A stretch of 24,883 nt of DNA, from IMG/VR virus record IMGVR_UViG_3300034190_003745, positions 1 to 24,883 of that record. One strand, 5' to 3'. Source of the stretch: a virus. Shown one piece after another: positions 1,778 to 24,883 of the stretch; the stretch's first letter is position 1; every line of letters starts with the position of its first letter. The notes beneath the pieces were generated by a model. That model saw only the letters and a program-made list of their open reading frames with translations, did no database searches and was not told where the DNA came from. The position numbers and the translations under genes are program-made.

Positions 1778-2539
1778 ATGTCTAAAGCAGTTTTCATTTC
1801 CGATCTTCACTTGGCATCCAAAAAGTCAAAGGGGGATTGCATACATGAATTTCTCAAAGATTTGAAAACTGAAGATCTCTACATGGTTGGTGATGTCATC
1901 GACATTTGGAGATTTCAACAAGCATTTTCGATGGGACCGATTAAACAACAGGAGACAGTCAAGTGTTTTGATCGCCTTCTGAGACTCTCCAAAAAAACAA
2001 ACGTACACTACATTTGGGGAAACCATGACGAATTCATGTCAAGATTTGCTGATTCTTCTGGGTTTGGTAACATCACACTGGCGGAGCGTAAAGACTACAT
2101 TTCAAGCGATGGTAAGAGATATCTCGTCCTTCATGGTCATCAGTTCGATCTTCTTGCAAAATATGCCTGGTCGCCTTGGTTGGGTAAAGTAGGTGATATC
2201 GGTTACGATATTATGATCGAAATTAACGAATGGTATAACTGGTTTCGACGGAAGATTGGTTTAAGGTATTGGTCGTTGTCCAAGTATATCAAAGTCAAGT
2301 TCAAGACAGCAGTGGTGTTCATGGATCGTTTTGAAAAGATTACAACCGATTATGCAAAGAAAAATGGTTACGACGGAGTGATTTGTGGTCACATTCATGA
2401 TCCTCAAGATAAGACTGTAAATGATGTTCATTATCTCAACTGTGGATGCTGGACAGACGAAGAAAACCTCACTTACATCGTAGATGACGAGAATGGAATT
2501 AGACTAGAATATGCAAAAAAGAATACTCATAGTAAGTGA
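1778..2539 (+). CDS. plcP: Metallophosphoesterase of the COG2908 family, probable phospholipase PlcP
   Basis: A 253-residue calcineurin-type metallophosphoesterase. Metal-binding motifs are all present: DLH (D9, H11), GDVID (from 38), GNHDE (from 81), HGH (119-121) and GHIH (204-207). The central segment with the RRKIGLRYWSLSKYIK pattern and the FEKITTDYAKKNGYDGVICG lead-in to GHIH matches the COG2908 group, annotated as UDP-2,3-diacylglucosamine diphosphatase (LpxH-like), which also contains PlcP. PlcP cleaves phospholipids to diacylglycerol under phosphate starvation in Sinorhizobium and marine bacteria. The downstream glycosyltransferase overlaps by 29 bases, the same pairing as host plcP-agt operons, so I prefer PlcP over an LpxH lipid A role. 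The start follows SD GGAGGAAGAG and replaces an upstream TTG. No signal peptide, so it is cytosolic or peripheral to the inner membrane. Enzyme class is firm; substrate is inferred. Confidence 0.75.
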   Translation: MSKAVFISDLHLASKKSKGDCIHEFLKDLKTEDLYMVGDVIDIWRFQQAFSMGPIKQQETVKCFDRLLRLSKKTNVHYIWGNHDEFMSRFADSSGFGNITLAERKDYISSDGKRYLVLHGHQFDLLAKYAWSPWLGKVGDIGYDIMIEINEWYNWFRRKIGLRYWSLSKYIKVKFKTAVVFMDRFEKITTDYAKKNGYDGVICGHIHDPQDKTVNDVHYLNCGCWTDEENLTYIVDDENGIRLEYAKKNTHSK

Positions 2540-3524
2540 CGCATGGAAACCACAAGTCAACGGTGTCGTAACGACCCTTACAAATGTCTCTGAAAAACTG
2601 AGAGAGATGGGACATGATGTTCGCGTTGTCTCTCCAGAGGATTGCTCCTTTCGGTTTCGTGTGCCGTTTTACCCAGAGATTCGTCTTGGGTGGCCTAAGA
2701 AACGAGTCATGGAAAATCTACTCCACGACTTTCAACCAAACCATATTCACATCTCAACACCAGAGGGTCCGTTGGGTCGGTGCTGGAGGAAGTTGTGCAA
2801 AAAATATAGACTAAACTACACAACGGCATACCACACCAAGTTTCCAGAGTTTGTAAAGTCAATAACGAAGGTGATTCCAGTCTTTTTCGGACATATGTTC
2901 ATGAGGTATGTGAATAAGCATTCCTCTTGCATTATGGTTCCGACTGGAAGTATGATTGATGAACTCAAAGAAAGAGGATATGAAAATGTGAAACTTTGGG
3001 GTAGGGGGTATGACGAAGAAATCTTCGGTCCAGTAAAAAGAGTCCCACAACAAAATGATCCACCCAGACTTCTTTGTGTTTCTCGAATTTCTGCTGAGAA
3101 GAATCTCGAAGATTTCTTTGAACTAGATGTGCGGGGCGACAAGATCATGGTGGGTGATGGACCTGAACGAAAGAAGTATGAAAAAAGATATCCCGATGTT
3201 ACCTTCGTTGGATTTAAGAAGGGGATGGAATTGGCGAGTTACTACCAAAATGCGGATGTCTTTGTTTTTCCATCGAAGAAAGACACTTTTGGTGTTGTCA
3301 TGATCGAGTCTCTTGCCTGTGGAACTCCAATCGCTGGATACGATGTGACAGGTCCGAAGGACATTGTAATCAATGGTTACAACGGATTTATTGGAAACGA
3401 TCTAAAAACGAATGTCATAAAGTGTCTTGACATAGATCGTGATATGGTGTATCGTTCTAGCTCCAGTTATTCTTGGACGGGTTCAGCAAATCAATTTTTA
3501 AATAATTTAGTAGGAATAATTTGA
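2511..3524 (+). CDS. agt: GT4 glycosyltransferase, probable diacylglycerol glycosyltransferase Agt
   Basis: A 337-residue retaining GT-B glycosyltransferase of family GT4, close to the SQD2/MgtA/Agt branch. Visible motifs: an N-terminal loop SDAWKPQVNGVVTTLTN (9-25), HISTPEGPLG (80-89), YHTKFPEF (107-114), the SRISAEKNLE donor-site loop with R192 and K197, VGDGPER (214-220), and the nucleotide-sugar site around DTFGVVMIESLACGTP with the conserved Glu at 266. It starts inside the phosphoesterase gene and ends in TGATG with thyX, so translation is coupled in both directions. Agt enzymes transfer a sugar from a nucleotide donor to the diacylglycerol that PlcP produces, making phosphorus-free glycolipids. 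Acceptor and sugar cannot be read from sequence; an LPS-modifying enzyme is the main alternative. Confidence 0.75.
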   Translation: MQKRILIVSDAWKPQVNGVVTTLTNVSEKLREMGHDVRVVSPEDCSFRFRVPFYPEIRLGWPKKRVMENLLHDFQPNHIHISTPEGPLGRCWRKLCKKYRLNYTTAYHTKFPEFVKSITKVIPVFFGHMFMRYVNKHSSCIMVPTGSMIDELKERGYENVKLWGRGYDEEIFGPVKRVPQQNDPPRLLCVSRISAEKNLEDFFELDVRGDKIMVGDGPERKKYEKRYPDVTFVGFKKGMELASYYQNADVFVFPSKKDTFGVVMIESLACGTPIAGYDVTGPKDIVINGYNGFIGNDLKTNVIKCLDIDRDMVYRSSSSYSWTGSANQFLNNLVGII

Positions 3525-4292: not shown

Positions 4293-6242
4293 ATGGAATT
4301 ACCGTCTTTATATCAATCTTTTATACATCTTTCGCGTTACTCTCGTTGGTTGGACGATAAGGGGCGTAGAGAAACGTGGAGTGAAACAGTTGCACGGTAT
4401 TTCGATTTCTTCGAAACGCATCTAAAGGAGGAATGCAATTACGAGGTTCCTACAGAACTTCGCACAGAGTTGGAGTCTGCGGTTCTTAATCTTGAAATTA
4501 TGCCGTCTATGCGCGCACTGATGACCGCAGGGGAAGCATTAAGGAGAGACAACGTTGCAGGGTACAACTGCTCCTATGTCAGTGCAAACAAACCTAAGTC
4601 GTTTGATGAGATTCTGTACATCCTCATGTGCGGAACAGGAGTCGGCTTTAGTGTCGAACGAGAATTCATCAAAACCCTGCCGACCATAGCAGAGGAGTTC
4701 GAAGACAGTGATACAACGATTATTGTCCAAGATTCAAAGATGGGTTGGGCGAAAGCCTATAGAGAACTGTTTAGCCTTCTCATTGGAGGTCAAGTTCCAA
4801 AATGGGACACGAGCAAAGTTCGTCCTGCCGGCGCACGCCTTAAGACTTTTGGAGGAAGAGCATCCGGACCCGAGCCGCTCGAAGACCTCTTCCGCTTCAC
4901 AGTTGACACTTTCCGAAAAGCAGCGGGTAGAAAACTTACTTCTATCGAATGTCACGATATCATCTGCAAAATTGCGGAGATTGTCGTTGTCGGGGGTGTT
5001 CGAAGATCGGCACTGATCTCTCTTTCCTCGCTCACGGATGAGCGTATGAGAGATGCAAAGAGTGGTGCTTGGTGGGAAGCAGATCCCCAGCGAGCACTTG
5101 CAAATAACTCTGTCGCTTACAAAGAGAAGCCAGAGCCAGGTATCTTCATGGAAGAATGGCTTTCTCTTTACAAGTCAAAGAGTGGTGAGCGTGGTATCTT
5201 TAACCGAGATGCTGCACAGAAGCAAATTGAAAAGGCGAATGACTTTAGAAAGCAACTGAACCCAGAGTATCGTATGCGTGAATCTGAGTTTGATTTTGGA
5301 ACTAATCCATGCTCAGAAATTATTCTTCGAGATAAAGAATTTTGTAACCTAACTGAAGTTGTTGTTCGTTCTGATGACACCGAGGAGTCTCTACGGAGGA
5401 AGGTGCGTCTTGCCACCATTCTTGGCACTTGGCAGTCAACTCTTATCAACTTCAAGTATCTTTCGGGAGACTGGAAGAAGAACTGCGAAGATGAGAGACT
5501 ACTTGGTGTTTCCATGACTGGTATCATGGATTCAAAGGTAACACGAGAACTTAAAGGTTTGGATCTAAAATTAAGAACGTTCAAGTCTATTGCGATTGAA
5601 ACCAATAAGGAACACGCCGATATTCTCGGTATTCCGCAGAGTGCAGCAATCACTTGTGTGAAGCCTTCTGGAACAGTCTCTCAGTTAACCGATGCTGCTT
5701 CCGGTATTCACGCTCGTCATAGTCAGTTCTATGTCCGCACCGTTCGTGCTGACAACAAGGATCCTCTGTGCGAATTTATGAAGAGATGCGGTTTCCCACA
5801 TGAAGCCGATGTCATGAAGCCAGAGCATGTTACCGTGTTCTCATTCCCCGTGAAGTCACCAAAGGGATGTGTTACTCGTAATGACATGACTGCTATTGAG
5901 CAGTTAGAACTTTGGCTTACATACCAACGCTATTGGTGCGAACATAAGCCTTCTGTAACAATCACTGTTCGTGAGGAGGAGTGGCCATTGGTGGGTGGAT
6001 GGGTATATGATCACTTTGATGAGATTTCTGGTATTTCATTCCTTCCGCACAGTGATCACTCTTATCGACAAGCACCTTATCAGGAGTGCGGAGAAGCAGA
6101 GTATAAAGAATTACTTAAGTCTCTACCAACGGATGTTGACTGGACTGGACTTGGTGATTACGAAAAAGAGGACAATACGTCAGGAACTCAGACATTCGCC
6201 TGCTCTGGTGACTCATGTGAAGTAGTCGATTTAACGAAATGA
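4293..6242 (+). CDS. nrdJ: Class II (adenosylcobalamin-dependent) ribonucleotide reductase, monomeric
   Basis: Reduces ribonucleotides to deoxyribonucleotides with adenosylcobalamin as radical source, independent of oxygen. At 649 residues it is somewhat shorter than the Lactobacillus leichmannii monomeric enzyme. Motifs: YNCSY with the substrate-reducing Cys93, GTGVGFS (114-120), the active-site loop TNPCSEI with thiyl Cys340 and Glu342, the second redox Cys at 351 (FCNLTE), a KPSGTVS phosphate-binding loop, and a C-terminal cysteine pair C637/C642 (CSGDSC) spaced as in the leichmannii enzyme for thioredoxin regeneration. No ATP-cone and no partner NrdB gene is seen. The start is fixed by SD TAGGAG upstream of 4293. 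It needs B12 from the host, which may relate to the CobS-like gene at the right end. Confidence 0.95.
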   Translation: MELPSLYQSFIHLSRYSRWLDDKGRRETWSETVARYFDFFETHLKEECNYEVPTELRTELESAVLNLEIMPSMRALMTAGEALRRDNVAGYNCSYVSANKPKSFDEILYILMCGTGVGFSVEREFIKTLPTIAEEFEDSDTTIIVQDSKMGWAKAYRELFSLLIGGQVPKWDTSKVRPAGARLKTFGGRASGPEPLEDLFRFTVDTFRKAAGRKLTSIECHDIICKIAEIVVVGGVRRSALISLSSLTDERMRDAKSGAWWEADPQRALANNSVAYKEKPEPGIFMEEWLSLYKSKSGERGIFNRDAAQKQIEKANDFRKQLNPEYRMRESEFDFGTNPCSEIILRDKEFCNLTEVVVRSDDTEESLRRKVRLATILGTWQSTLINFKYLSGDWKKNCEDERLLGVSMTGIMDSKVTRELKGLDLKLRTFKSIAIETNKEHADILGIPQSAAITCVKPSGTVSQLTDAASGIHARHSQFYVRTVRADNKDPLCEFMKRCGFPHEADVMKPEHVTVFSFPVKSPKGCVTRNDMTAIEQLELWLTYQRYWCEHKPSVTITVREEEWPLVGGWVYDHFDEISGISFLPHSDHSYRQAPYQECGEAEYKELLKSLPTDVDWTGLGDYEKEDNTSGTQTFACSGDSCEVVDLTK

Positions 6243-6367: not shown

Positions 6368-6931
6368 ATGAGTGAAGTAGAATTTATCGCTGGAATAGAC
6401 TACAGCTTATGCGGACCTGCAATTTGCATAAGCGATATGAGTCAAACTTTTGACTTTTATTCTTGTCAATTTTTCTTTTTGACACAAATAAAAAAGTACG
6501 CAAAGAAGATAAAATCCAATATTCAAGGTGAGACTTTTTCTGAGTATAATCAAGATATTGAGAGATACGAGACAATAGCAGATTGGGCAGCAGATAAAGT
6601 TATAGGCTGTACCCATATTGGTTTAGAAGGTTACGCTTATAATGCCACTGGCAAAGTGTTTCATATTGCGGAAAACACAGGCGTCCTTAAGTATAAATTG
6701 TACCAGATGTCTACCCCGGTTGATGTTATTCCTCCGAGCGAAATCAAGAAATTTGCAACCGGAAAGGGAAATGCAAATAAAGAAAAAATGTACGAAACAT
6801 TCTTTGCAGAAACTGGAGTTCCCCTTGCTTCTTTTTTGGGAACAAAGGGAGATAAGATAAAAAGCCCACTATCTGATATAGTAGACTCATATTATATTTG
6901 TAAATTTTTAAGATATGAAATTATTATTTAA
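6368..6931 (+). CDS. RuvC-like Holliday-junction resolvase / RNase H-fold nuclease
   Basis: A 187-residue protein with the acidic motifs of the RuvC/RNase H fold: GIDYSLCGPAI (first Asp), IGLEGYAY (central Glu) and SDIVDSYYIC (C-terminal Asp). The segment NTGVLKYKLYQ followed by PPSEIKKFATGKGNANKE is typical of RuvC-type resolvases found in large phages and helps recognise this subfamily. It would cut branched DNA during recombination-dependent replication or packaging. I use the ATG at 6368 because an upstream GTG lies inside the terminator hairpin. A CATAAATA box abuts the start (6355-6362) but is too close to serve it. It ends convergently, overlapping the minus-strand lipoprotein gene by 8 bases. 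Confidence 0.75.
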   Translation: MSEVEFIAGIDYSLCGPAICISDMSQTFDFYSCQFFFLTQIKKYAKKIKSNIQGETFSEYNQDIERYETIADWAADKVIGCTHIGLEGYAYNATGKVFHIAENTGVLKYKLYQMSTPVDVIPPSEIKKFATGKGNANKEKMYETFFAETGVPLASFLGTKGDKIKSPLSDIVDSYYICKFLRYEIII

Positions 6932-7157
6932 TTGTAGGTTTGTTTTTTCGAACAGAAAACCACCAAATACCTACGATTAAACTTGTGACGATTAACGCTA
7001 ACATTGATAATTTAAATAAATCAATCTTAACTATCGCCGATTCTGTGTTTATTAGTTTTTGTTGTTGTACCGGATCAATTGGATGATCAAAATCCTGAAT
7101 TTTTAATCCGCCCGTGCATGATGTTAAAAAAATGCATAATGGTATTAAATATCTCAT
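6924..7157 (-). CDS. Small lipoprotein with C-terminal membrane segment (spanin-like topology)
   Basis: A 77-residue protein with a lipoprotein signal peptide: MRYLIPLCIFLTSC, where LTSC is the lipobox with the acylated Cys at 14. A periplasmic stretch of about 35 residues follows, then a hydrophobic segment (LSMLALIVTSLIVGIWWF) and a basic cytosolic tail. An outer-membrane lipoprotein end plus an inner-membrane C-terminal anchor is the topology of unimolecular spanins, which fuse the membranes during lysis. The middle is too short to span the periplasm as known u-spanins do, so this is only a lead. It is last in the late operon, ATGA-coupled to the holin-like gene. No endolysin gene is visible nearby. 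Confidence 0.6.
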   Translation of the reverse strand: MRYLIPLCIFLTSCTGGLKIQDFDHPIDPVQQQKLINTESAIVKIDLFKLSMLALIVTSLIVGIWWFSVRKNKPTIK

Positions 7158-7594
7158 CGTCTTGCAACCGCACTTCCGAAGTAAAATCCTACTATGCTTA
7201 GTAGTATTTGACGGTTTTCTTCGGTGAAAAGATATCCATACACTGTATGGAAAGATACGTTTTCTCCTCCACCAAATAACCCCAAAAATGAAGGACTGGT
7301 TGATTTTATTTCAACAACTGTTGGTATGCCGAAAAATGGAAGAACAAATGGGGCAACTATGGTGCCGAATAGTATGCAAAGCACAATCGCTCTTCTGACA
7401 ATTTTACCTGCTTCTACCCCTACTCGTTGAACCGCTTTATCTTGATTTTCGGTTTCTACTTCATTCCTCTTTATGAGCATCTCGAATTGTTGTCTTCGAG
7501 CTTCTCTTTGCTCTGCCATATTTTTAAATATAAATCCGGTTAAAGATCCGCCTATCAGAGATAAAAATTCGGTTGTTAAAAAAGACTCTAACAT
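7154..7594 (-). CDS. Holin-like membrane protein
   Basis: A 146-residue membrane protein. Hydrophobic segments are an N-terminal one (FLSLIGGSLTGFIF), a long one near 66-90 (AIVLCILFGTIVAPFVLPFF) and one at the C-terminus (ILLSIVGFYFGSAVA); a charged helix rich in Glu, Arg and Gln sits between the first two. This arrangement resembles the three-segment holin-like proteins of gene transfer agents and many marine phages. SD AAAGGAGACTAAT precedes the ATG. The stop overlaps the lipoprotein gene (ATGA), which supports a lysis function. A structural or assembly membrane protein is the alternative. Confidence 0.5.
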   Translation of the reverse strand: MLESFLTTEFLSLIGGSLTGFIFKNMAEQREARRQQFEMLIKRNEVETENQDKAVQRVGVEAGKIVRRAIVLCILFGTIVAPFVLPFFGIPTVVEIKSTSPSFLGLFGGGENVSFHTVYGYLFTEENRQILLSIVGFYFGSAVARR

Positions 7595-8590: not shown

Positions 8591-9168
8591 TTTTCATATG
8601 ATGTAAATGATTCGAGAGTGTCTTTTTCTTTCTTCTCTGATTTGCCTGGATGAAGTTCTTTTGAGTCTTTCTTTTCGTCGTTTTCTACATCAAAGGATGT
8701 TGTCTCTACAATTTTTGCATCAACTTTATAGAGACCGTTTGGGACATCAATCATGTTGATATTTAATGCGTAAGACTTTCCTTCTTCAAATCCATCAGTA
8801 ACTTCGAATTCATTGTGAGGTGTTGTTGGAGATTTTCCGAAAGTTCCACCGAACTTATAAAGTCTGTATGATGTGCTTCCATCCTCTAGGTTTTCTGCCA
8901 TATCAATCTTAAAGTCAAGTCCTGCGATGTTCAACTTTGCTCTAAGCATTCCAAGAGCAGCTCTTGGATCAAGAAATTCTTTTTGTGTGAATGCGTTTAC
9001 GAATGCGTTCAATCTCTTGAGTTGCGCGGGACTTTCTGTTCTGTATATCCCGGCATCACTGTGCGCAGATCGACCGTAACTGTCGCTGGGATCTCCGTTT
9101 CCGAAGCCACCACCGAATCCGTACTCGCTCTCATTAATTTTTTGCAATAGTTCGTTGTAAGTTTTCAT
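8587..9168 (-). CDS. Probable capsid-targeted internal head protein
   Basis: A 193-residue protein whose N-terminus MKTYNELLQKINE closely resembles the T4 capsid-targeting sequence MKTYQEFIAE of internal proteins IPI-IPIII, followed by an (I/L)xE-type cleavage point (INE before SEYGFGG). The rest has a Gly-rich stretch (GFGGGFGNG), HSDAGIYRTESPAQLKRLN (36-54), a folded mid-part (PRAALGMLRAKLNIAGLDF) and a charged tail rich in Lys and Glu. The mid-part is familiar from marine phage hypothetical proteins. SD TAGGAG lies upstream of the ATG. I infer encapsidation and gp21-type processing from the N-terminus; the mature function is unknown. Confidence 0.75.
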   Translation of the reverse strand: MKTYNELLQKINESEYGFGGGFGNGDPSDSYGRSAHSDAGIYRTESPAQLKRLNAFVNAFTQKEFLDPRAALGMLRAKLNIAGLDFKIDMAENLEDGSTSYRLYKFGGTFGKSPTTPHNEFEVTDGFEEGKSYALNINMIDVPNGLYKVDAKIVETTSFDVENDEKKDSKELHPGKSEKKEKDTLESFTSYEK

Positions 9169-9187
9169 TGTAGTCTCCTACCTCTAT

Positions 9188-10642
9188 TTAGCCTTTCTTC
9201 CATCCGCCGCCCTTGGACTTGTACCATTTGGCAGCCCATCCATTGGCATATGCGCTTGGATAAACATCGAATTTTTGTTTTGCTAGTGATTTTGCTCTCG
9301 ACCAGAGGGAAGGATTTGTTGGAACGTTTTTCTCTTCTAATTCCTGTCCATCTGGTTCGAAGTGACTCTTGAGAGTGGCACCATTTGTCTTTGGGTTGTA
9401 CTTATACTCTGATGGTTTTCTCCCGGATCTCTTTGCAGCGCGATCCTTTGCTCTGCCTGCAGCACCCATTGACTGTCTCTTTTCACCGTGCTTGGTGAGT
9501 TCCCTGGTTCCAGGTTTAAATGATCCGGATTTTTGGAGTTGTGCTGTTGCAGTTGCATGTGCCCTGTCCTTGGACATGCCTCTGGCAAGAAGTTGGGAAA
9601 CTAGACGATCGTAAAGTTTTCCTTCTTTTATATCTTCACCCTCACCACTTTCCATGTAATCAGAGGCTGTATCAATATAATCTGCTGCCTTAGTGATTTT
9701 GGACTGAACCCATGCTTCTAATTGTCCCTCTCCCTGGACTTTTTTCATTAACTTTTCCACTGCCTTTTTAATCGTGGAAAGTTGTGATCTTGCCATAGAG
9801 TGCTCGTGATCCTTTTCGGATTTTTCTGAAATCTCTTCGCCATGATCGGGTGTGAAATTATCTTCAACCTTTGCACCGGCTCTCCATTGTCTGCACGACC
9901 AGTATCTTGCTTTTGTTTTAGGACCTGGATTATCACAATTGTGTCTTGCACGGAAGTTCGATCTTCTTTCGGGATCGTCTCTTTTAATTTCCATATTTGG
10001 ATCACCAAAGCGAACTGTTTTAACATTGCCGGTTGATGGATCCTTAACCTTAACCATAAATTTTTTGGGGCCCCCAGGAGTTCTTTGAACTTTACCGAGT
10101 GGGCCTTCTTTTTCATTTAATTGTTCTTCGTGAACATTGTAGATGTTCTCTTGGGTGGCGTATTCTAGAACTTCGTTTCCGTTATGATCTGAAAGAACGA
10201 GTAATTTTAGACCATTTGATATGTCTTCAATTTTTTCAACGGTGTATTTGTATCCGTGGTTTTTAATAATTGTCAATCCCTCTTTTATTTCGGAGAGGGG
10301 AAGTTCTACTATCTTTTTCATTACGCTTTCCTCAGTTTTTTTAATCTTGTTTGAAACCATGATGGGAGCACCACCTTTACCCGCCCGGTCGGCTACGGGA
10401 TCCTGCTCTCTTTTTCTGCGGACAGCAGCTGCTATTTTCTTTTTTCCGCCCTGTGCTCGTAATTTTGCTGCTTTTTCTCGTGAGAGACATTTTGGTTTAC
10501 CTTCACCCGGACCTCTTGCACATTTACCAATTCTCTCCCCTTTGGTGTTGTAACGATCCCAACCGCCACCACCAACGCCGCCCTTGCCGCCGGTTCCAAA
10601 CCATTTTCTTAAATCTTCTGATATGGGATCTTTTTCAGTCAT
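9188..10642 (-). CDS. Basic modular protein with DUF5872-like module and repeated (I/L)xE sites
   Basis: A 484-residue, highly basic protein built from modules that occur separately in other phages. Residues 13-100 hold a Gly-rich WFGTGGKGGVGGGGWDRY module with two Cys (41, 52) and RRKRE, of the DUF5872-like type. Residues 178-258 are basic with Cys at 236 and 250 (RARHNCDNPGPKTKARYWSC). Residues 278-332 are helical (HSMARSQLSTIKKA). Residues 341-425 form another basic helical module, and 440-484 a tail with YPSAYANGWAAKWYKSKG. Between modules stand prohead-protease-like sites: ISE (7-9), LSEIKE (116-121), LNE (175-177), ISE (271-273), IKE (338-340) and LEE (435-437). The start overlaps the upstream membrane protein gene. 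I read it as a DNA-binding internal head precursor; this is inference. Confidence 0.7.
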   Translation of the reverse strand: MTEKDPISEDLRKWFGTGGKGGVGGGGWDRYNTKGERIGKCARGPGEGKPKCLSREKAAKLRAQGGKKKIAAAVRRKREQDPVADRAGKGGAPIMVSNKIKKTEESVMKKIVELPLSEIKEGLTIIKNHGYKYTVEKIEDISNGLKLLVLSDHNGNEVLEYATQENIYNVHEEQLNEKEGPLGKVQRTPGGPKKFMVKVKDPSTGNVKTVRFGDPNMEIKRDDPERRSNFRARHNCDNPGPKTKARYWSCRQWRAGAKVEDNFTPDHGEEISEKSEKDHEHSMARSQLSTIKKAVEKLMKKVQGEGQLEAWVQSKITKAADYIDTASDYMESGEGEDIKEGKLYDRLVSQLLARGMSKDRAHATATAQLQKSGSFKPGTRELTKHGEKRQSMGAAGRAKDRAAKRSGRKPSEYKYNPKTNGATLKSHFEPDGQELEEKNVPTNPSLWSRAKSLAKQKFDVYPSAYANGWAAKWYKSKGGGWKKG

Positions 10643-10901
10643 TTTGTTCTAACGCTCTTCTTATCCAAAGTAGATCTGTTTTAATTTCTGCGAGATCTGT
10701 CATTAGTGTGGCACGAAATGCCTCGCTTGTGTCTAATCTGGAATCTAAAGTTTCTAAATTTCTTTCTATAAATTCTAATTTTGTTTCGTAAGTTGCATCT
10801 TTTTGTGCAACAAACCAAACTGTTGATCCAAAGGTGATCGCAAAGCCAAGAATCGCGCTCATAATAGAAATGGTGGCACTAGTCTTCGCCGTAGCAGTCA
10901 T
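10635..10901 (-). CDS. Small membrane-anchored coiled-coil protein
   Basis: An 88-residue protein with one N-terminal membrane segment (about 12-32, ISIMSAILGFAITFGSTVWF) followed by a heptad-like coiled coil (KLEFIERNLETLDSRLDTSE and on to the C-terminus). The topology would leave the coiled coil on one face of the inner membrane. An inner-membrane spanin (Rz-like) shape is possible, especially with a lipoprotein gene in the same operon, but it is short and far from that gene. Its ATG overlaps the upstream stop (TAATG) after SD AGGAGACG, and its end overlaps the next gene by 8 bases. Function unknown. Confidence 0.65.
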   Translation of the reverse strand: MTATAKTSATISIMSAILGFAITFGSTVWFVAQKDATYETKLEFIERNLETLDSRLDTSEAFRATLMTDLAEIKTDLLWIRRALEQND

Positions 10902-13465
10902 TATCGTCTCCTTTTAGACACAATATGTTGTTTTTTCTGACCGGGCGTACCCTCTATGTAGGTTTTTAATAATTCATCAGTTCCCTCAAACCCAGCTCCA
11001 TATTCCTCGCCGATTCGATGCTTGTTATCCGCTCTGTTTTGACTTCTATCCCTCGCCCTTAGATTAGAATCGCCATTATTAAGTGCATTTCCATCTTTAT
11101 GATCCACATCTTGGTGGGGTTTTACTTTACCACTTTTGACCATTCTTCTTCTAGCCAAAACTCTATTTGATCTCTTTTTTCTTTGCTCTGGTTTTCCATG
11201 AAACGTCTCGTATTCGTGCTTATAGTCTCGCTTTGATGGATCATCCTGTTCAAACACCAAGTTAAAAGACTCGTTAACCCCATCTTCTTCCTCCGTGTAG
11301 AAGGTGTCTTCGAAGTCGGGTTTCTCTGGTAAAACCGGTACTTTCTTCTTTTTCCCGTTGATTGTTATGATATTCATTCTGCCCTCTTCGGGTGCGTCTT
11401 CAATAATATTACCACTGACAGATATATCCAGTCCTCTTGAGATTTCCCTTAAAATCTGCTCTGGGTTCTTGCCGTAAAAGTCACCAAGAAGTTCTGGTGT
11501 GTAAATGAAAGCGGTGTCTCCGTTCATTTTGACTTTTGGTTTGTTTGCCTCTGCGAGTTCGATATTTTTCCCTTTGAGTTCGAACCTGAAAGTCGGTTGG
11601 GTTATTTTTCCCCTGCTCTTGGATCGGATTCCGACGTAAGTTTTTGGCATCACGCTTGTGATATAATCCCCATCTGACTCGCCTATTTCTTCGAACCCTG
11701 CTGGACTGAGAAGATGTGTTGCCGCTGCCTCTGGATTGTCCTCGAATGCTCTTCTCCCAGTGAGTGCTTCGTGAACCAATTCTCTCTTAAACTCTTCACT
11801 TTCTGATAAAAACTTAACAAACTCGTCCTGAATGTTCTTTGTCACAGTTCCAGAATAGTTTTGCCAATTGTACTTGTCCTTAAGGTTTCCGTTCTTATCA
11901 AACATCTCTTCAAACCAAGGTTTTCCGCCGTGTCTATCCTTTGCCTCTTCAATATGCTTTGGATCTAACATCTTGTTTGGAAGTGATCTTAGAGATTTAG
12001 CAACATTTTTTGCAGCATTCTGCATAACTTCCTGATCTTGAGCGCCGACGATCGCAGAGAGGTTCTCAAGCGTTTTGGCGGTTGTCTGTGCGCTTTCACT
12101 TGACAGTTGAATGTTACCATTCATTTTAAGAGATATTTTATTGTCCCCGCATATCAAATCTGTTTTTGGTTCCGGTCTTCCAGAAATCCCCACCTCGTCG
12201 GAGTGCTTGAGTTGTCCTTTGCACTCGTCTGGTATGTGCTTTACTGCGGTTTTGGCCATGTCAAAAACATCTTTTCTAAAAGCAGTTAGATTTTGACCTG
12301 CCATATCGTTTCTTTTTGATAATTGCTCGTCTGTTGCGCCCGCAGCCTTAGCGGCAAGATAAGTGACAGCCCACTCAAACTGGACGCCTCTACCCTGAGT
12401 GATTTCCTTCGACGGACCTGGGTATTGAATTGTGTCTATGTTCTGTGCGGGGCCTGCCGGTGTAAACGGATCCAGAGCATCATATTCTGCTTGGGCTTGG
12501 GCTTGAGCTTCTGCGTCTGCATCTTGTTGCATCTGTTCCGTATCAGAATCAGAGGGCATTTTTTCTTCCGTTTCTTTCTTTCTTTTTTCTGCCTCTTTTT
12601 CTGTGTCTCTCTGTGATTCGACATCTTTCATCATATCAGAAAGATCACCAAAAACTTCCATTGAAGTTGGAGTTTGCTTAAATTTTTGTTGTCTAATCGC
12701 ACCCTCAACGTCAGTCATCGTTGGTTTTGGTTTATCTGGACCGCCCTTAAGAACAGTGTCATCATTGGGGTCAGGTCGAACTACCACCTCTATTTCGCCG
12801 CCCTTTCTTTTTTGAATGAGATACAGATCGGGAGGTAAATATTTGGCTGCTTCGTTTAATAATTCCGGATTGTTCATAAATTCCTCAAATTCCTCGTAAT
12901 TGAACCAATCTAAAGATTCCATGTGAGATGACAGAGTGGAGTGCATTTTCTTTGCATCGGAATGGGAAACATGCTTTGGAAGCATTGTCTTGAATGATGT
13001 GAGTCCCGCCTTTGCTCTTTTTCTTGTTTCTGTCCCGGATGCTCTTTCTACGGGATCATGGGAGTCTGGATCTCTGTGACCAGCGGAAACAATAGAAACA
13101 GATTTTAGTCCGGAGTGTTTCTTCAGGGCGTCTGCTTTTTTATTCATCTCTGCGTGCCGATCTGATCCTACGATCAAAGTTGCGTGTTGATATCCACTTT
13201 TTGCAGCGTGCTCTGCCGCATGAAACATGCTTTTAACTTCTGGATGAGAAACTACGTTATGTCCTCTAAGAACTTTTTTTGCAAACCCTTGCTTCACGTC
13301 CGGCGGCAATGGATTTTTTTTGCCATCATGAGTTTGACTCAAATAGATTGCGTGATCACCCCCGACTTTTTTGGCATGAGATCTTACCGCGTCTGCTAGT
13401 TTTAGATGTCCCGCGTGTGGGGGGTTCATTCTACCGAATGCGAATACAAGGTGTTTATTTGCCAT
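10901..13465 (-). CDS. Fusion of NMNAT-like nucleotidyltransferase, PD-(D/E)XK-like domain and HNH nuclease
   Basis: An 854-residue protein. Residues 1-180 form a cytidylyl/NMN-adenylyltransferase-like domain: FGRMNPPHAGH with the HxGH motif at 17-20, LSQTHDGKKNPLP, IVGSDR (98-103) and the SAGHRDPDS and GTETRKRAK region. After a helical stretch with an LNE site (203-205, before AAKYLPP) comes an acidic, Gln/Glu-rich linker (about 280-335). The next domain has FEWAVTYLAA (Glu364) and PKTDLICGDNKISLK (Asp436, Lys447), a PD-(D/E)XK-like pattern. The C-terminus (about 745-815) is an HNH domain: RRRMVKSGKVKPHQDVDHKD then GNALNNGDSNLRARDRSQN. I use the ATG at 13465 (SD GGTGGAG) over a GTG five codons upstream. 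It is the first gene of the late operon. The nucleotidyltransferase and HNH calls are firmer than the middle one. Confidence 0.8.
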   Translation of the reverse strand: MANKHLVFAFGRMNPPHAGHLKLADAVRSHAKKVGGDHAIYLSQTHDGKKNPLPPDVKQGFAKKVLRGHNVVSHPEVKSMFHAAEHAAKSGYQHATLIVGSDRHAEMNKKADALKKHSGLKSVSIVSAGHRDPDSHDPVERASGTETRKRAKAGLTSFKTMLPKHVSHSDAKKMHSTLSSHMESLDWFNYEEFEEFMNNPELLNEAAKYLPPDLYLIQKRKGGEIEVVVRPDPNDDTVLKGGPDKPKPTMTDVEGAIRQQKFKQTPTSMEVFGDLSDMMKDVESQRDTEKEAEKRKKETEEKMPSDSDTEQMQQDADAEAQAQAQAEYDALDPFTPAGPAQNIDTIQYPGPSKEITQGRGVQFEWAVTYLAAKAAGATDEQLSKRNDMAGQNLTAFRKDVFDMAKTAVKHIPDECKGQLKHSDEVGISGRPEPKTDLICGDNKISLKMNGNIQLSSESAQTTAKTLENLSAIVGAQDQEVMQNAAKNVAKSLRSLPNKMLDPKHIEEAKDRHGGKPWFEEMFDKNGNLKDKYNWQNYSGTVTKNIQDEFVKFLSESEEFKRELVHEALTGRRAFEDNPEAAATHLLSPAGFEEIGESDGDYITSVMPKTYVGIRSKSRGKITQPTFRFELKGKNIELAEANKPKVKMNGDTAFIYTPELLGDFYGKNPEQILREISRGLDISVSGNIIEDAPEEGRMNIITINGKKKKVPVLPEKPDFEDTFYTEEEDGVNESFNLVFEQDDPSKRDYKHEYETFHGKPEQRKKRSNRVLARRRMVKSGKVKPHQDVDHKDGNALNNGDSNLRARDRSQNRADNKHRIGEEYGAGFEGTDELLKTYIEGTPGQKKQHIVSKRRR

Positions 13466-13482
13466 TATACGGTTCTCCACCG

Positions 13483-15577: not shown

Positions 15578-16720
15578 ATGAAAACATTTACAAAATTTCT
15601 GACGGAACAAACTAAAAAACCAAAAGTAGAGACAACAGGTCATCTTGCACATGCAGGAGATTTTTTGTACTATGGAAATCCAGATCACGCCATTCACCAC
15701 CACGAAAAAATGTTTGATCGTCTTCACAATAACACAGAGGATCCAGATCACCCAATATCCTTGAAGGTAGATGGTGGTATGAGTTTTCTCATGGGTAAAG
15801 ATGAATCGGGAAAGCCTTTCGTATCCTACAAATCAGCGAAACAAAAGTTTTATAGTGCAAAAGACATTCTTGCAACTGGAAAGCCTCATTATGAAAAACT
15901 TTTGATCCCTGCATTGTATGCCACTCGAAAAATGAAATCCATGCCTGCTGGGACTGCCATTCAAGCCGATCACTTGTTTGATGATCGACCCTCGAAGGAC
16001 AATTATACTTCAAATACCATACCATATTCATCCCCTGGAAAAAGTCATTCCTTCGGATTTGCCCCGCATTCCCAGTATGATGTCAGGGGGAGTGATCTCA
16101 TAAAAGTTTCAAACGAACCAGATCACTCGCATTTTCCGAAGGATCATGTTTACGCACCGAAGTTATCGTTTGGTGGTAAAAAATTCACTCCGATGAGCGA
16201 TGATAGAGTTCAAAAAATTCAACAAAGTATTGGAACGGCGAAGGCGATATTGAATGACGAAGGCCTGAAAACATTTGCATCCACTCTTCCTGATGACAAA
16301 AAATTTCATTCGGCACTACAGGGATACTCTAATCATGTTGCAAGAACTTCTGGTGTTCGATCCACTGATGATCTGATCCAACACGTTCAGAAACATGTTA
16401 ACAGAAGAAAAGTTAGTGATAGACTGAAACAAAAAGAATTAGAATCTCACACACAGAAAATAGAGGATAATCGACAGCATTTCGATGCACTCTTTTCCGC
16501 CCACAACAACCTCACAAATGCTAAACATGAAATGACGGGACATCTGAAAGATCATCACGATCTCTTTGACATTCGTCCCCACCGAGATGAGGAGCATGAG
16601 GGTATTGTTGCTACGTCAAACTCAACAGGCACAACAGCCAAGTTTGTCCCAGAGGGTCCAGATGGTTTTGCCGCAAAGAACGCAGCAAGATCAGCAGAAC
16701 TTAGATCAAAAGGTAGGTAA
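15578..16720 (+). CDS. DUF6267-like protein with KxDG ligase-type motif and capsid-targeting N-terminus
   Basis: A 380-residue protein. It starts MKTFTKFLTE, a near copy of the T4 capsid-targeting sequence with an LxE cleavage point before QTKKPK. GHLAHAGDFLYYG and the helix after it resemble DUF6267 proteins of marine phages. SLKVDGGMSF places Lys63 in a KxDG motif like motif I of nucleotidyltransferase-fold DNA and RNA ligases, followed by GKPFVSYKSAKQKF and, near 128-150, TAIQADHLFDD and SNTIPYSSP, all in the order seen in DUF6267. The second half is His- and Lys-rich and helical. The ATG at 15578 is preceded by a weak GGGG SD. Adenylation activity is a hypothesis; the family call is from memory of its motif pattern. 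Confidence 0.7.
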   Translation: MKTFTKFLTEQTKKPKVETTGHLAHAGDFLYYGNPDHAIHHHEKMFDRLHNNTEDPDHPISLKVDGGMSFLMGKDESGKPFVSYKSAKQKFYSAKDILATGKPHYEKLLIPALYATRKMKSMPAGTAIQADHLFDDRPSKDNYTSNTIPYSSPGKSHSFGFAPHSQYDVRGSDLIKVSNEPDHSHFPKDHVYAPKLSFGGKKFTPMSDDRVQKIQQSIGTAKAILNDEGLKTFASTLPDDKKFHSALQGYSNHVARTSGVRSTDDLIQHVQKHVNRRKVSDRLKQKELESHTQKIEDNRQHFDALFSAHNNLTNAKHEMTGHLKDHHDLFDIRPHRDEEHEGIVATSNSTGTTAKFVPEGPDGFAAKNAARSAELRSKGR

Positions 16721-16726
16721 ACACCT

Positions 16727-16734
16727 TATACATA
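16727..16734 (+). promoter_or_regulatory. Late-promoter-like box TATACATA
   Basis: TATACATA within CTTATACATAA, 30 nt before the ATG at 16765. The same 11-nt string CTTATACATAA is found at 19949-19959 before another gene start, which argues against chance. Confidence 0.4.
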
Positions 16735-16764
16735 ATGTGAAATTTCATTGTCGTAGGAGGAAAA

Positions 16765-17484
16765 ATGTCCACAAACGACACGCAGGGTTGTTCAAGATGT
16801 CGTGACTATGATGAAATAAAGAATGATCTGGAAAAGCAGAAAGAAAAAATACAAGATAGCCAGAAAACCGCTCTCGCTGAGTGTGAAGAGAAAAGAACAA
16901 ATTTACAGAGAAAGTTGACCAGGGTAGGTGTCGCTGCCGTTATTGGCGGCACTATTTTGGGTAAAGAGTTTGTTGATAATGTTGTTTCATATATCGAATC
17001 ATTTAACAAAGTTGCTGAAGTCGTTCCTGGCTTAGTGGGATCTGTAACCCCCTCCTCTGGAGGTGCTGGTGGTTCGATGCCTGGTCAAAGTACATCATCA
17101 AAATCGCAAAAAAAGGAAGAGGAAGAGGATACCAAGAAGTCTAACCCCGACAAAATTCCCTTTTCCCCGTACAGCAACGTTAATCCTTATCCCATATTTG
17201 CAGACAAGGATGCAGTTTCGGATTCCTTGGAGAGTATTTTAAGAGGTGATGTTTATACCCCCGAGTCAATCCTTGATATGGATCTTGCATCACTTGTCGA
17301 TCCAATGATTGATTTTCCCATAATTCCTACTTCGAATGAGTTTGTAATAGATTTTAAACTGCTAGATCCAATTGAGTCGAGTTACTTTGTGGCAATGTCC
17401 AGTCAACCATCCATAGTGCCTGGGCCGCCAACTCTTGCTTTGCTCTTATTGCCTTTATTGTTCAAAGGACGCAGAAAAAGATAA
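16765..17484 (+). CDS. Membrane protein with coiled coil and PEP-CTERM-like C-terminus
   Basis: A 239-residue protein. It begins with a Cys-containing segment (CSRCRDYDE) and a charged coiled coil (about 15-48), then a hydrophobic stretch (VGVAAVIGGTILG, 52-65), a Gly/Ser-rich and acidic-basic linker (SSGGAGGSMPG, KKEEEEDTKK) and a region rich in Asp, Pro and Ile. The last 22 residues have three parts: VPGPPTLALL, a further hydrophobic run and a basic end KGRRKR. That is the layout of PEP-CTERM sorting tails (typically VPEPATLALL, hydrophobic, RRRR) recognised by exosortases; here the Glu is Gly. The start follows SD AGGAGG. It sits alone between divergent or convergent genes. Function unknown; the tail is the notable feature. 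Confidence 0.7.
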   Translation: MSTNDTQGCSRCRDYDEIKNDLEKQKEKIQDSQKTALAECEEKRTNLQRKLTRVGVAAVIGGTILGKEFVDNVVSYIESFNKVAEVVPGLVGSVTPSSGGAGGSMPGQSTSSKSQKKEEEEDTKKSNPDKIPFSPYSNVNPYPIFADKDAVSDSLESILRGDVYTPESILDMDLASLVDPMIDFPIIPTSNEFVIDFKLLDPIESSYFVAMSSQPSIVPGPPTLALLLLPLLFKGRRKR

Positions 17485-17485
17485 T

Positions 17486-17845
17486 CTATTTGTTTCTTTT
17501 CTTGGTGATCTTTTTCATTCTGTCGAGGAAGGATCTGTATTTTCCTGCCGCTGCTGCGAGGTTACGCCTCTTAGTCGGATCCTTCGCACGCTTTGAAGCA
17601 ACTTTTGCTCGCTGTCCCATCGCAATCGCCGCTTGAACTTTGTGTGCGTGCTTTCTCCCGGATCTTTTGATTTTTCTGATTGATCTCTCTGCGTCTGCTC
17701 CTGTTTTGAATCCGAGTCCATGTATCGTCCCCCGTGGATTCTCATCGGTGTATAGATCGCTATGCTTTTTTGGATCTTGACCTGGATACTTTTCAGGGAT
17801 CCGTCTCCCTTCCAAGAATGCTTGTGTAAGTCTTGTATATTTCAT
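17486..17845 (-). CDS. DUF5872-type small basic protein with CTS-like N-terminus
   Basis: A 119-residue basic protein. KHSDLYTDENPRGTIHGLGF and KTGADAERSIRKIKRSGRKH, then AHKVQAAIAMGQRAKVASKR, follow the DUF5872-like pattern known from many marine phages and large viruses, of unknown role. The N-terminus MKYTRLTQAFLEGRRIPE resembles a long capsid-targeting peptide ending in IPE before KYPG. The ATG at 17845 overlaps the HNH stop (ATGA), which fixes the start against one seven codons upstream. The protein is rich in Lys and Arg and would bind DNA well. It ends two bases from the convergent membrane-protein gene with no hairpin terminator visible. Confidence 0.8.
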   Translation of the reverse strand: MKYTRLTQAFLEGRRIPEKYPGQDPKKHSDLYTDENPRGTIHGLGFKTGADAERSIRKIKRSGRKHAHKVQAAIAMGQRAKVASKRAKDPTKRRNLAAAAGKYRSFLDRMKKITKKRNK

Positions 17846-18357
17846 AGTGATATCCATCTGTCCCATGAAGATTTGAGTGTCTCTGCTAAATTATTTATGT
17901 GTAACTCTAACCAAAGTGGTCTTTTTGGTTTCTTGGAGAGGGGCATACCGCACTCGTTTGGTTTTCGGTTTCCCTTTCTTGTATTGCACTTCGCACATGC
18001 AGCAACAAGATTTGTCCAAGAGGAGTCTCCGCCCCTAGACCTTGGCATGACATGATCAATTGTAAGATTACATCCCCTCTTTGAGTGATATCCGCAATAC
18101 TGACATGTCCATTTGTCTCGAAGAAAGATGTTCTTTCGTGACGGGAGAGAATGTTGATATGGTATATGAACGTAGTTGGTGAGCATAATCGCCTTGGGAA
18201 GATTGAACGCTCCCTTTGTTGTTCTAATTTTATATGAGTCGCCATATGATGCAGGTTTTATTGCCTTTCCAGATAGAAGCAAACATATTGCTTTTTTCCA
18301 ATCAACTACACTAAGGACTTCTTCAGATGCGTTGAGCAATAAAACCTGTCTCTGCAT
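17842..18357 (-). CDS. HNH endonuclease with two CxxC zinc knuckles
   Basis: A 171-residue HNH nuclease. CQYC (85-88) and CAKC (121-124) bind a structural zinc, and the betabetaalpha-metal core is TIDHVMPRSRGGDSSWTNLV with His102 and Asn116, followed by CNTRKGNR. The N-terminal 75 residues (LLLNASEEVLSVVDWKKAIC) match the domain common in McrA-like bacterial and phage HNH enzymes. It may be a free-standing homing nuclease or serve in host-DNA attack or packaging. SD AGGAG precedes the ATG at 18357. A hairpin with a U-run lies directly before the SD, so its expression depends on read-through. It is ATGA-coupled to the DUF5872-type gene. Confidence 0.9.
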   Translation of the reverse strand: MQRQVLLLNASEEVLSVVDWKKAICLLLSGKAIKPASYGDSYKIRTTKGAFNLPKAIMLTNYVHIPYQHSLPSRKNIFLRDKWTCQYCGYHSKRGCNLTIDHVMPRSRGGDSSWTNLVAACAKCNTRKGNRKPNECGMPLSKKPKRPLWLELHINNLAETLKSSWDRWISL

Positions 18358-23647: not shown

Positions 23648-24883
23648 TCAGGCGTTGAGTGCGTAATCCGCCGCAGTCACACGCTTCTTGGGTTCCCACT
23701 TGCTGAGTTCTTCTTCGTTGGCACGATAGATCTTGCCGGTGACGGTCCACTTCTTCATACCCGGATCCCACTTCGCACCGAGAGGCTTCACTTCGTCCTT
23801 CTTCTCGAATGCGACATTCAGATCGATGATGCCATCGTCCTGAACGGACGCTGAGTCAAAAGGGACGGAGGAGTCCGCTCCTTCCTCGCCCTCGGAGGAA
23901 GGAGACATGGACTCATCCACCTTGTCGTACAGATTGCGGAACGCCTGCTGGGTGTCGTCGTCAAACCTGGCAAGAGCCAGATCGATCGCAGTGGCACGAT
24001 CCTTGAAGATCGAAAACGCCTTGCAGATGTTCTCCAGACGCCGGGTCGTGATGATCTCGTCGATCGCACCCTCGGAGAATGCCTTGCGGGTGATCTCCGC
24101 CCAGGAGGTGAGGTGTTCGGCGAAGTCATTGTCAACGTGCCCAAACTTCTCCATCTTCTTGATGAGAATACGCTTCTCGGTGGATCGGGCTGCGTAGTCC
24201 TGCTCCATCGTCCAGTCGAAACGATCCAGGAACGCCTCGTTGAGAACGTTGGTGCCGATGAATCGTCCGTCGTTGTCACCCTTACCCTTGGTGTTGGCAG
24301 TGGCGATGACGGTGAATCCCTGCTTGGGAGTGATCCATTCGCCAGTCTTCTTGATGAAGATACCCTTACCTTCCAGCACGGGCTGGAGGCACATGATCTT
24401 GGACGAACCGAGATCGATCTCGTCGAGGAGGAGAACAGCGCCACGCTGCATCGCTTCGACGACGGGTCCGTAAACGAACTTCGTCTCACCCTCGACGAGG
24501 CGGAAACCACCGACGAGATCATCCTCGTCCGTCTCGGAGGTGATGTTGACACGGAAGCACTCACGATTCGTCTTGGCACACGCCTGCTCGATCATCGTCG
24601 TCTTGCCGTTGCCGGACATACCAGTGATGAAGATGGGAGCGAACATGTTCGCAGCAACGATCTTCTCCACGGTCTTGGAGTGTCCCCACGAAACGTAGTC
24701 CTTCATGCGATCCGGCACGAGACTGACACGCTCACCAGCGGTCATGCCCATCACTGCGTTCAGCACGGGAGCGGGCGTTGGATCGCCAACCGGAGCGGCG
24801 ACGGGGGCAGGAGCAGGAACAGGGGCGGGTGCAGACTGCTGAGGAGTCACGGTGCCACCAAACTCGGGCACGGCGAAGACGCC
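23648..24883 (-). CDS. cobS: CobS-like AAA+ ATPase with C-terminal DUF5710-like domain (5' end missing)
   Basis: A MoxR/CobS-type AAA+ ATPase: Walker A GMSGNGKTT (84-92 from the GTG at 24871), Walker B AVLLLDEIDLG, a sensor-like ATANT, and FLDRFDW arginine-finger region, plus ISE-type helices. The N-terminal 40 residues are a Pro/Ala-rich linker (APAPVPAPAPVAAP). After the ATPase core an acidic linker leads to DLNVAFEKKDEVKPLGAKWD then PGMKKWTV, a DUF5710-like domain. CobS is a subunit of cobalt chelatase in aerobic B12 synthesis and is carried by many marine T4-like phages. The frame is open to the window edge, so the gene starts outside; the GTG is not a secure start. A general AAA+ remodelling role is the alternative to cobalt insertion. 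Confidence 0.85.
   Translation of the reverse strand, partial: GVFAVPEFGGTVTPQQSAPAPVPAPAPVAAPVGDPTPAPVLNAVMGMTAGERVSLVPDRMKDYVSWGHSKTVEKIVAANMFAPIFITGMSGNGKTTMIEQACAKTNRECFRVNITSETDEDDLVGGFRLVEGETKFVYGPVVEAMQRGAVLLLDEIDLGSSKIMCLQPVLEGKGIFIKKTGEWITPKQGFTVIATANTKGKGDNDGRFIGTNVLNEAFLDRFDWTMEQDYAARSTEKRILIKKMEKFGHVDNDFAEHLTSWAEITRKAFSEGAIDEIITTRRLENICKAFSIFKDRATAIDLALARFDDDTQQAFRNLYDKVDESMSPSSEGEEGADSSVPFDSASVQDDGIIDLNVAFEKKDEVKPLGAKWDPGMKKWTVTGKIYRANEEELSKWEPKKRVTAADYALNA

Follow-up and report, generated by a model that had tools for sequence, protein, structure and literature searches.

The DNA analysed here (the window) is a 24,883-base IMG/VR virus record and represents a fragment of a genome. 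It carries T4-type replication genes, as T4-like phages of the cyanophage and pelagiphage type do. The gp61-type primase has its best match in Prochlorococcus phage P-SSM4 (43.1%) and the cytidyltransferase protein in Cyanophage S-RIM50 (31.4%). Two further window ORFs, 2-706 and 23648-24871, look by eye like gp41 and cobS, which the P-SSM4 record carries as well. The class II (B12-dependent) ribonucleotide reductase at 4293-6242 (+ strand) is nearest to those of Rhizobium (64.7%) and Roseobacter phages; the primase of the same phage is nearest to those of cyanophages. In the long protein at 10901-13480 (- strand), a cytidyltransferase domain is combined with an HNH-type region and with phrog_22045, an unknown domain. 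At 6924-7594 (- strand), a 77-residue protein with a lipoprotein-like beginning, MRYLIPLCIFLTSC, overlaps a 146-residue protein with a hydrophobic segment. Neither has a Pfam match; perhaps they are lysis or envelope genes.

The subject of this analysis is a 239-residue ORF at 16765-17484 on the + strand. It ends in a TAA stop codon (17482-17484), and a direct reading of the sequence places an AGGAGG ribosome-binding site (16755-16760, + strand) immediately 5' of its ATG. With the other window genes as reference, its codon score is 0.176 in its own frame and below 0 in the other five. Residues 1-53 are charged. They are followed by an internal hydrophobic segment, VGVAAVIGGTILG (residues 54-66; 16924-16962, + strand), a candidate signal anchor with the basic stretch QRKLTR on its N-terminal side. 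The segment is weak, with a Kyte-Doolittle mean of 2.05 over its 13 residues and at most 1.26 in the 19-residue windows there. Residues 67-216 (16963-17412, + strand) form an acidic middle part that has a net charge of -13 and is probably unstructured. An AlphaFold2 model built from the single sequence, with no alignment, has a pLDDT of 44 overall and below 50 for residues 61-228, a helix at residues 12-65 being its only confident part. Cysteines occur only at residues 9, 12 and 40. Inspection and hydropathy show no N-terminal signal peptide, segment 54-66 being the only hydrophobic one ahead of the tail. Use of an internal TTG start ahead of residue 52, which might have supplied a signal peptide, was rejected, as neither a clear ribosome site nor a cleavage site was seen by eye.

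The last 22 residues form a tail, VPGPPTLALLLLPLLFKGRRKR (17416-17481, + strand), in which a VPGP motif is followed by a hydrophobic run and a basic end. The first-pass annotation had likened this three-part layout to that of PEP-CTERM sorting tails, and VPGP, the run and KGRRKR are indeed encoded exactly at these positions. The tail has a charge of +5. As in PEP-CTERM proteins, a basic cluster (KGRRKR) lies at the extreme C-terminus, directly before the stop. Where PEP-CTERM tails have a strongly hydrophobic stretch of about 14 residues, the window tail has TLALLLLPLLF, with a 13-residue mean of 1.98, one inner proline and no glycine. Where they have a near-invariant Pro-Glu-Pro, it has PGP. 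It had been claimed that only the Glu is changed. Gly does stand in for Glu, but the hydrophobic half is atypical as well, by its inner proline and lack of glycine, and the claim is therefore too strong.

The upstream neighbour of the tailed ORF is a DUF6267 (PF19782) protein (15578-16720, + strand; 4.9e-18, 66.1 bits), which is 83% identical in the sister contig L002. On its other side lies a convergent 126-residue ORF (17486-17866, - strand) with a codon score of 0.369 and no homolog among the loci compared. Searches with the protein and with the HNH neighbour returned only this sister contig and three distant ones as relatives. When the window is aligned with L002 by blastn, the matching blocks stop at 16705 (L002 9128) and resume at 17938 (L002 9226); L002 has 97 bases (9129-9225) where the window has 16706-17937. 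This stretch, about 1.1 kb of extra sequence, holds both the tailed and the convergent ORF. Both are absent from L002 by ORF order, and a search of the whole sister record at E up to 1 gave no match to the former. The tailed gene is thus accessory, either gained in the window phage or lost in the sister. No homolog of the 239-residue protein was found in the bacterial and viral collections searched, and conservation of the tail among relatives of the phage, to which the first-pass annotation had looked for support, therefore finds none.

A gene within a stretch missing from the sister contig is what a recent gain would leave behind, and the first half of the tail is intact while the second is degenerate. 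Both observations could be explained if a tail module from a bacterial exosortase substrate had been fused to a phage membrane protein and were now decaying, or keeping the host exosortase busy as a decoy. We consider such a capture improbable: among bacteria and viruses in the collections searched, no relative of the body, or of the tail in full, turned up, and the G+C content of the ORF (41.5%) matches that of the window (42.6%).

The curated PEP-CTERM profiles PF07589 and TIGR02595 returned zero rows at E up to 10, with the whole protein or with the tail alone, and the Pfam, PHROG and NCBIfam rows for the ORF are weak and all below any cut-off. The profile match by which the tail was to be verified thus failed to appear, although the test is a weak one for tails of this kind. 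In a control scan of 10 natural bacterial VPGP proteins, only 2/10 passed the PF07589 cut-off and 3/10 had no PF07589 row, while TIGR02595 passed 1/10. Since natural VPGP tails mostly miss the profiles, a miss says little for PGP tails. The best NCBIfam row for the 22-residue tail was MYXO-CTERM (TIGR03901; 16.2 bits, E 0.01), which raises the alternative that this is a C-terminal sorting tail of a Cys type, MYXO-CTERM or another. The row is below its cut-off of 20, and an invariant cysteine is a feature of MYXO-CTERM (PMC11980579). The window tail has no cysteine, which refutes a MYXO-CTERM identity and leaves a Cys-type tail with hardly any probability.

Gly in place of Glu does occur in nature. 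A DNA pattern for VPGPx[TS]LALL matched at least 120 stretches in genome contigs, and among the genome matches listed, there are 13 genomes (L078, L052, L057, L058, L065, L011, L028, L096, L064, L093, L110, L042 and L020, the last being Neoroseomonas alkaliterrae, a cultured exosortase carrier) in which the pattern is 21-29 residues from the stop and the tail ends in basic residues. Exosortase (PF09721) was found in 11/13 of them versus 2/15 comparison genomes (Fisher p 3.8e-4), the latter being hand-chosen genomes with the pattern elsewhere than in a tail; the two groups together use 28 of the 120 loci listed and leave out L041 (a duplicate on the L078 contig) and four ambiguous loci, L023, L037, L053 and L125. 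The proposal that Gly for Glu is a natural variant of the exosortase tail is accordingly upheld. PF07589 matches were present in 5/8 VPGP-tail genomes examined. The tails in those five are mostly VPAP, VPVP, IPAP and VPTP, showing that the third position there need not be Glu. The PGP tails of exosortase genomes (L058, L011, L028, L065, L078, L096 and similar) mostly score under the curated cut-offs, and PGP and PAP tails appear to be under-called by current profiles.

The resemblance was set against chance with 27 tails from exosortase genomes that had not been chosen with the window's pattern (34 strings, minus 6 that were junk and 1 that fitted the window pattern); they stem from genomes picked for holding a VPGP tail, a milder dependence. 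In a 10-column motif matrix built from them, VPGPPTLALL scores 17.8 bits and ranks 72 of 1923 phage ORF tails, a background called mechanically that includes spurious ORFs. All 71 tails above it carry VPEP. Of these, 63 also pass a basic-end rule, and the other 9 rows of the top 72, which do not pass, are VPEP tails too. Among unrelated tails the best reaches 13.0 bits and the next 7.2, and the highest of 361 T4-like ORFs, among the matches listed, reaches 6.1. When the last 34 residues are shuffled, 19/200,000 shuffles reach the window's motif score; for the 16-residue run the figure is 141/200,000. Scored with a full-length profile of those 27 tails, the window tail reaches -1.5 bits and ranks 525 of 1923, and 11,556/20,000 shuffles score as well. 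It sits at shuffle level on account of the proline and the missing glycine in its hydrophobic half. By these scores the motif half (the first ten residues) is specific, unlike the anchor half. Another profile, made from 76 tails (13 bacterial VPGP and 63 viral VPEP), gave 16.3 bits and rank 11 of 1847; it was discarded as circular because its training tails had been picked with a pattern from the window.

These scores bear on the main alternative, a Leu- and Pro-rich C-terminal membrane anchor of the ordinary kind, basic at its end, on a phage inner-membrane protein; VPGPPTLALL would then be coincidental and no exosortase would take part. In favour of it, the tail matches no curated profile and over its whole length scores like its own shuffles, and the protein has no visible signal peptide. 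The tail was moreover selected post hoc out of a long sequence, and composition alone equals the motif score in the run shuffles often enough to be reachable given many windows. Against coincidence, no phage ORF tail other than VPxP tails of the exosortase type reached 17.8 bits. Apart from the window, only 4 of 2.9 million viral contigs match the VPGPx[TS]LALL DNA pattern, and none of the four matches is a real protein tail, so a chance tail of such a kind is rare, and the whole viral collection offers no second one. We regard an ordinary anchor with a chance motif as a strong contender, almost as likely as a genuine exosortase substrate; between these two the odds are about even.

PEP-CTERM proteins do occur on contigs classed as viral. 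The canonical VPEPx[TS]LALL pattern was found on 109 viral contigs (L127-L235), and 89/109 pass a tail-layout rule; several of the 20 that fail it are still PEP-type tails by eye. The proteins group into families of 28, 17, 6, 5 and 5 members and smaller ones, with examples at L175:1019-3801, L158:2475-3323 and L219:6195-7738. Neighbour genes were examined in 8 loci. In five of the eight (L175, L158, L160, L219 and L208) the PEP-CTERM gene has terminase, portal or major head genes nearby; of the other three, two have an exonuclease or ParB-like gene and one has nothing recognised. Two exemplars have no relatives in isolated phages, and some of the contigs may be prophages with host flanks. A literature search found no title or abstract opening that describes exosortase substrates encoded by phages as a system. 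Among the cellular-origin genes of hot-spring viral contigs, one paper mentions TIGR03118 genes, which have an exosortase-interaction domain (PMC11003980), and a further paper concerns genes of the Microcystis host (PMC12642866).

The tail had also been read as a hint of the host group, planctomycete-type hosts among them. A window gene that bears on the host is a family 4 glycosyltransferase (2511-3524, + strand) adjoining a PlcP-like metallophosphoesterase (1766-2539, + strand). Its relatives were found in 76/190 genomes of a first proteobacterial class, that of G007 (Rhodobacteraceae), at E up to 1e-20, and in 34/185 genomes of a second, that of G023 (Luteimonas), at E up to 1e-40 (class names inferred). 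Among Planctomycetota, 17/149 genomes match at 1e-20 and only 2/149 above 200 bits. Because the glycosyltransferase beside the PlcP-like gene has strong relatives in Proteobacteria, a proteobacterial host is more likely than a planctomycete one, and the planctomycete hint is not borne out. Exosortase exceeds its cut-off in 24/190 and 58/185 sampled genomes of the first and second class, and in 16/76 and 11/34 of the respective glycosyltransferase carriers. An exosortase in a proteobacterial host is accordingly possible, not the default.

The metallophosphoesterase and the glycosyltransferase also lie side by side, in the same order as in the window, in 6/8 alphaproteobacterial loci. This is also the order of the plcP-agt pair of lipid remodelling in Alphaproteobacteria, and adjacency of plcP and agt is known from marine bacteria. 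A PlcP-like gene is also present in Pelagibacter phage Mosig. PlcP and Agt of lipid remodelling have been described for Pseudomonas (PMC9804370). Carried by the phage, the pair in the window could be a cassette for altering membrane lipids when phosphate is limiting; a literature search combining "plcP" and "auxiliary metabolic gene" returned no paper with both.

Several observations speak for the tail being an exosortase substrate. In the independent matrix, VPGPPTLALL is outscored only by VPEP tails; natural VPGP tails are similarly placed from the stop, mostly in exosortase genomes; Glu is dispensable in the five genomes with mostly VPAP, VPVP, IPAP or VPTP tails; chance tails of this pattern are rare among viral contigs; and PEP-CTERM genes do sit beside phage head and packaging genes. 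Against it count the missing PF07589 and TIGR02595 matches with a full-length profile at shuffle level, the lack of a visible cleavable signal peptide together with an extra hydrophobic segment ahead of the tail, the absence of the gene from the sister record and of relatives, and the 60/76 and 23/34 glycosyltransferase carriers that have no exosortase match over the cut-off. Signal peptides are present in 97% of PEP-CTERM proteins, and intervening membrane segments are almost absent from them (PMC1569441). The tail is PEP-CTERM-like by its motif half and no member of the group by curated tests. That the protein is a two-segment inner-membrane protein of a T4-like phage, with the tail as a putative exosortase substrate, is the reading we tentatively prefer, at a probability somewhat short of even. 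The observation of the tail stands; its interpretation, by which the phage uses a host exosortase or mimics the substrates of one, is plausible but unproven.

For this preferred reading we infer topology, export, cleavage and purpose as follows. An accessory gene of a T4-like phage would encode a two-segment inner-membrane protein oriented by the positive-inside rule. Its N-terminus would stay inside, the weak segment 54-66 serving as a signal anchor that is not cleaved, and the acidic middle part would be periplasmic. From the periplasmic side the C-terminal tail would then enter the membrane, VPGP staying at the surface and KGRRKR reaching the cytoplasm. Such a posture is that of an exosortase substrate in the model of Haft and others (PMC1569441), so cleavage is conceivable in an exosortase-bearing host, where a cut at VPGP or close to it would let the protein move on to the envelope or the exopolysaccharide layer. 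As to purpose, one may speculate about shielding of the infected cell, masking of a receptor or a change of the envelope. It is possible in a wider sense, though rather doubtful, that phages of exosortase-bearing bacteria repeatedly encode exosortase substrates, that the T4-like phage described here uses a PGP variant missed by the profiles, and that the host enzyme places the phage protein in the envelope. If true, the phage would exploit the exosortase route of its host, the protein would offer a handle on how phages change an infected cell's surface, and the tail would restrict the possible hosts to those with an exosortase.

Compared with known systems, the window tail has in common with MYXO-CTERM (TIGR03901) the hydrophobic run and the basic end. 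Relative to the PEP-CTERM (PF07589, TIGR02595) and exosortase (PF09721) system, it differs by Gly for Glu, by a proline and no glycine in the run and by the lack of a profile match; the protein has no visible signal peptide and the window record no exosortase. With PEP-CTERM tails it shares the layout of motif, hydrophobic run and basic end at the extreme C-terminus, and its first ten residues fit the motif half. The PEP-CTERM proteins of viral contigs have canonical VPEP tails on unrelated bodies, and the exemplar N-termini look like signal peptides, unlike that of the window protein, but they too present an exosortase-type tail on contigs classed as viral. Among natural VPGP proteins, most of the 15 N-termini viewed likewise look like signal peptides by eye, whereas the window protein has none. 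The VPGP and VPAP tails of Phycisphaerales and Alphaproteobacteria (e.g., L058 and L093) have, in the examples examined, a hydrophobic run rich in Gly or Ala, unlike the window tail, but their VPGPx[TS]LAL[LF] start is identical to that of the window tail and they resemble it in length and basic end.
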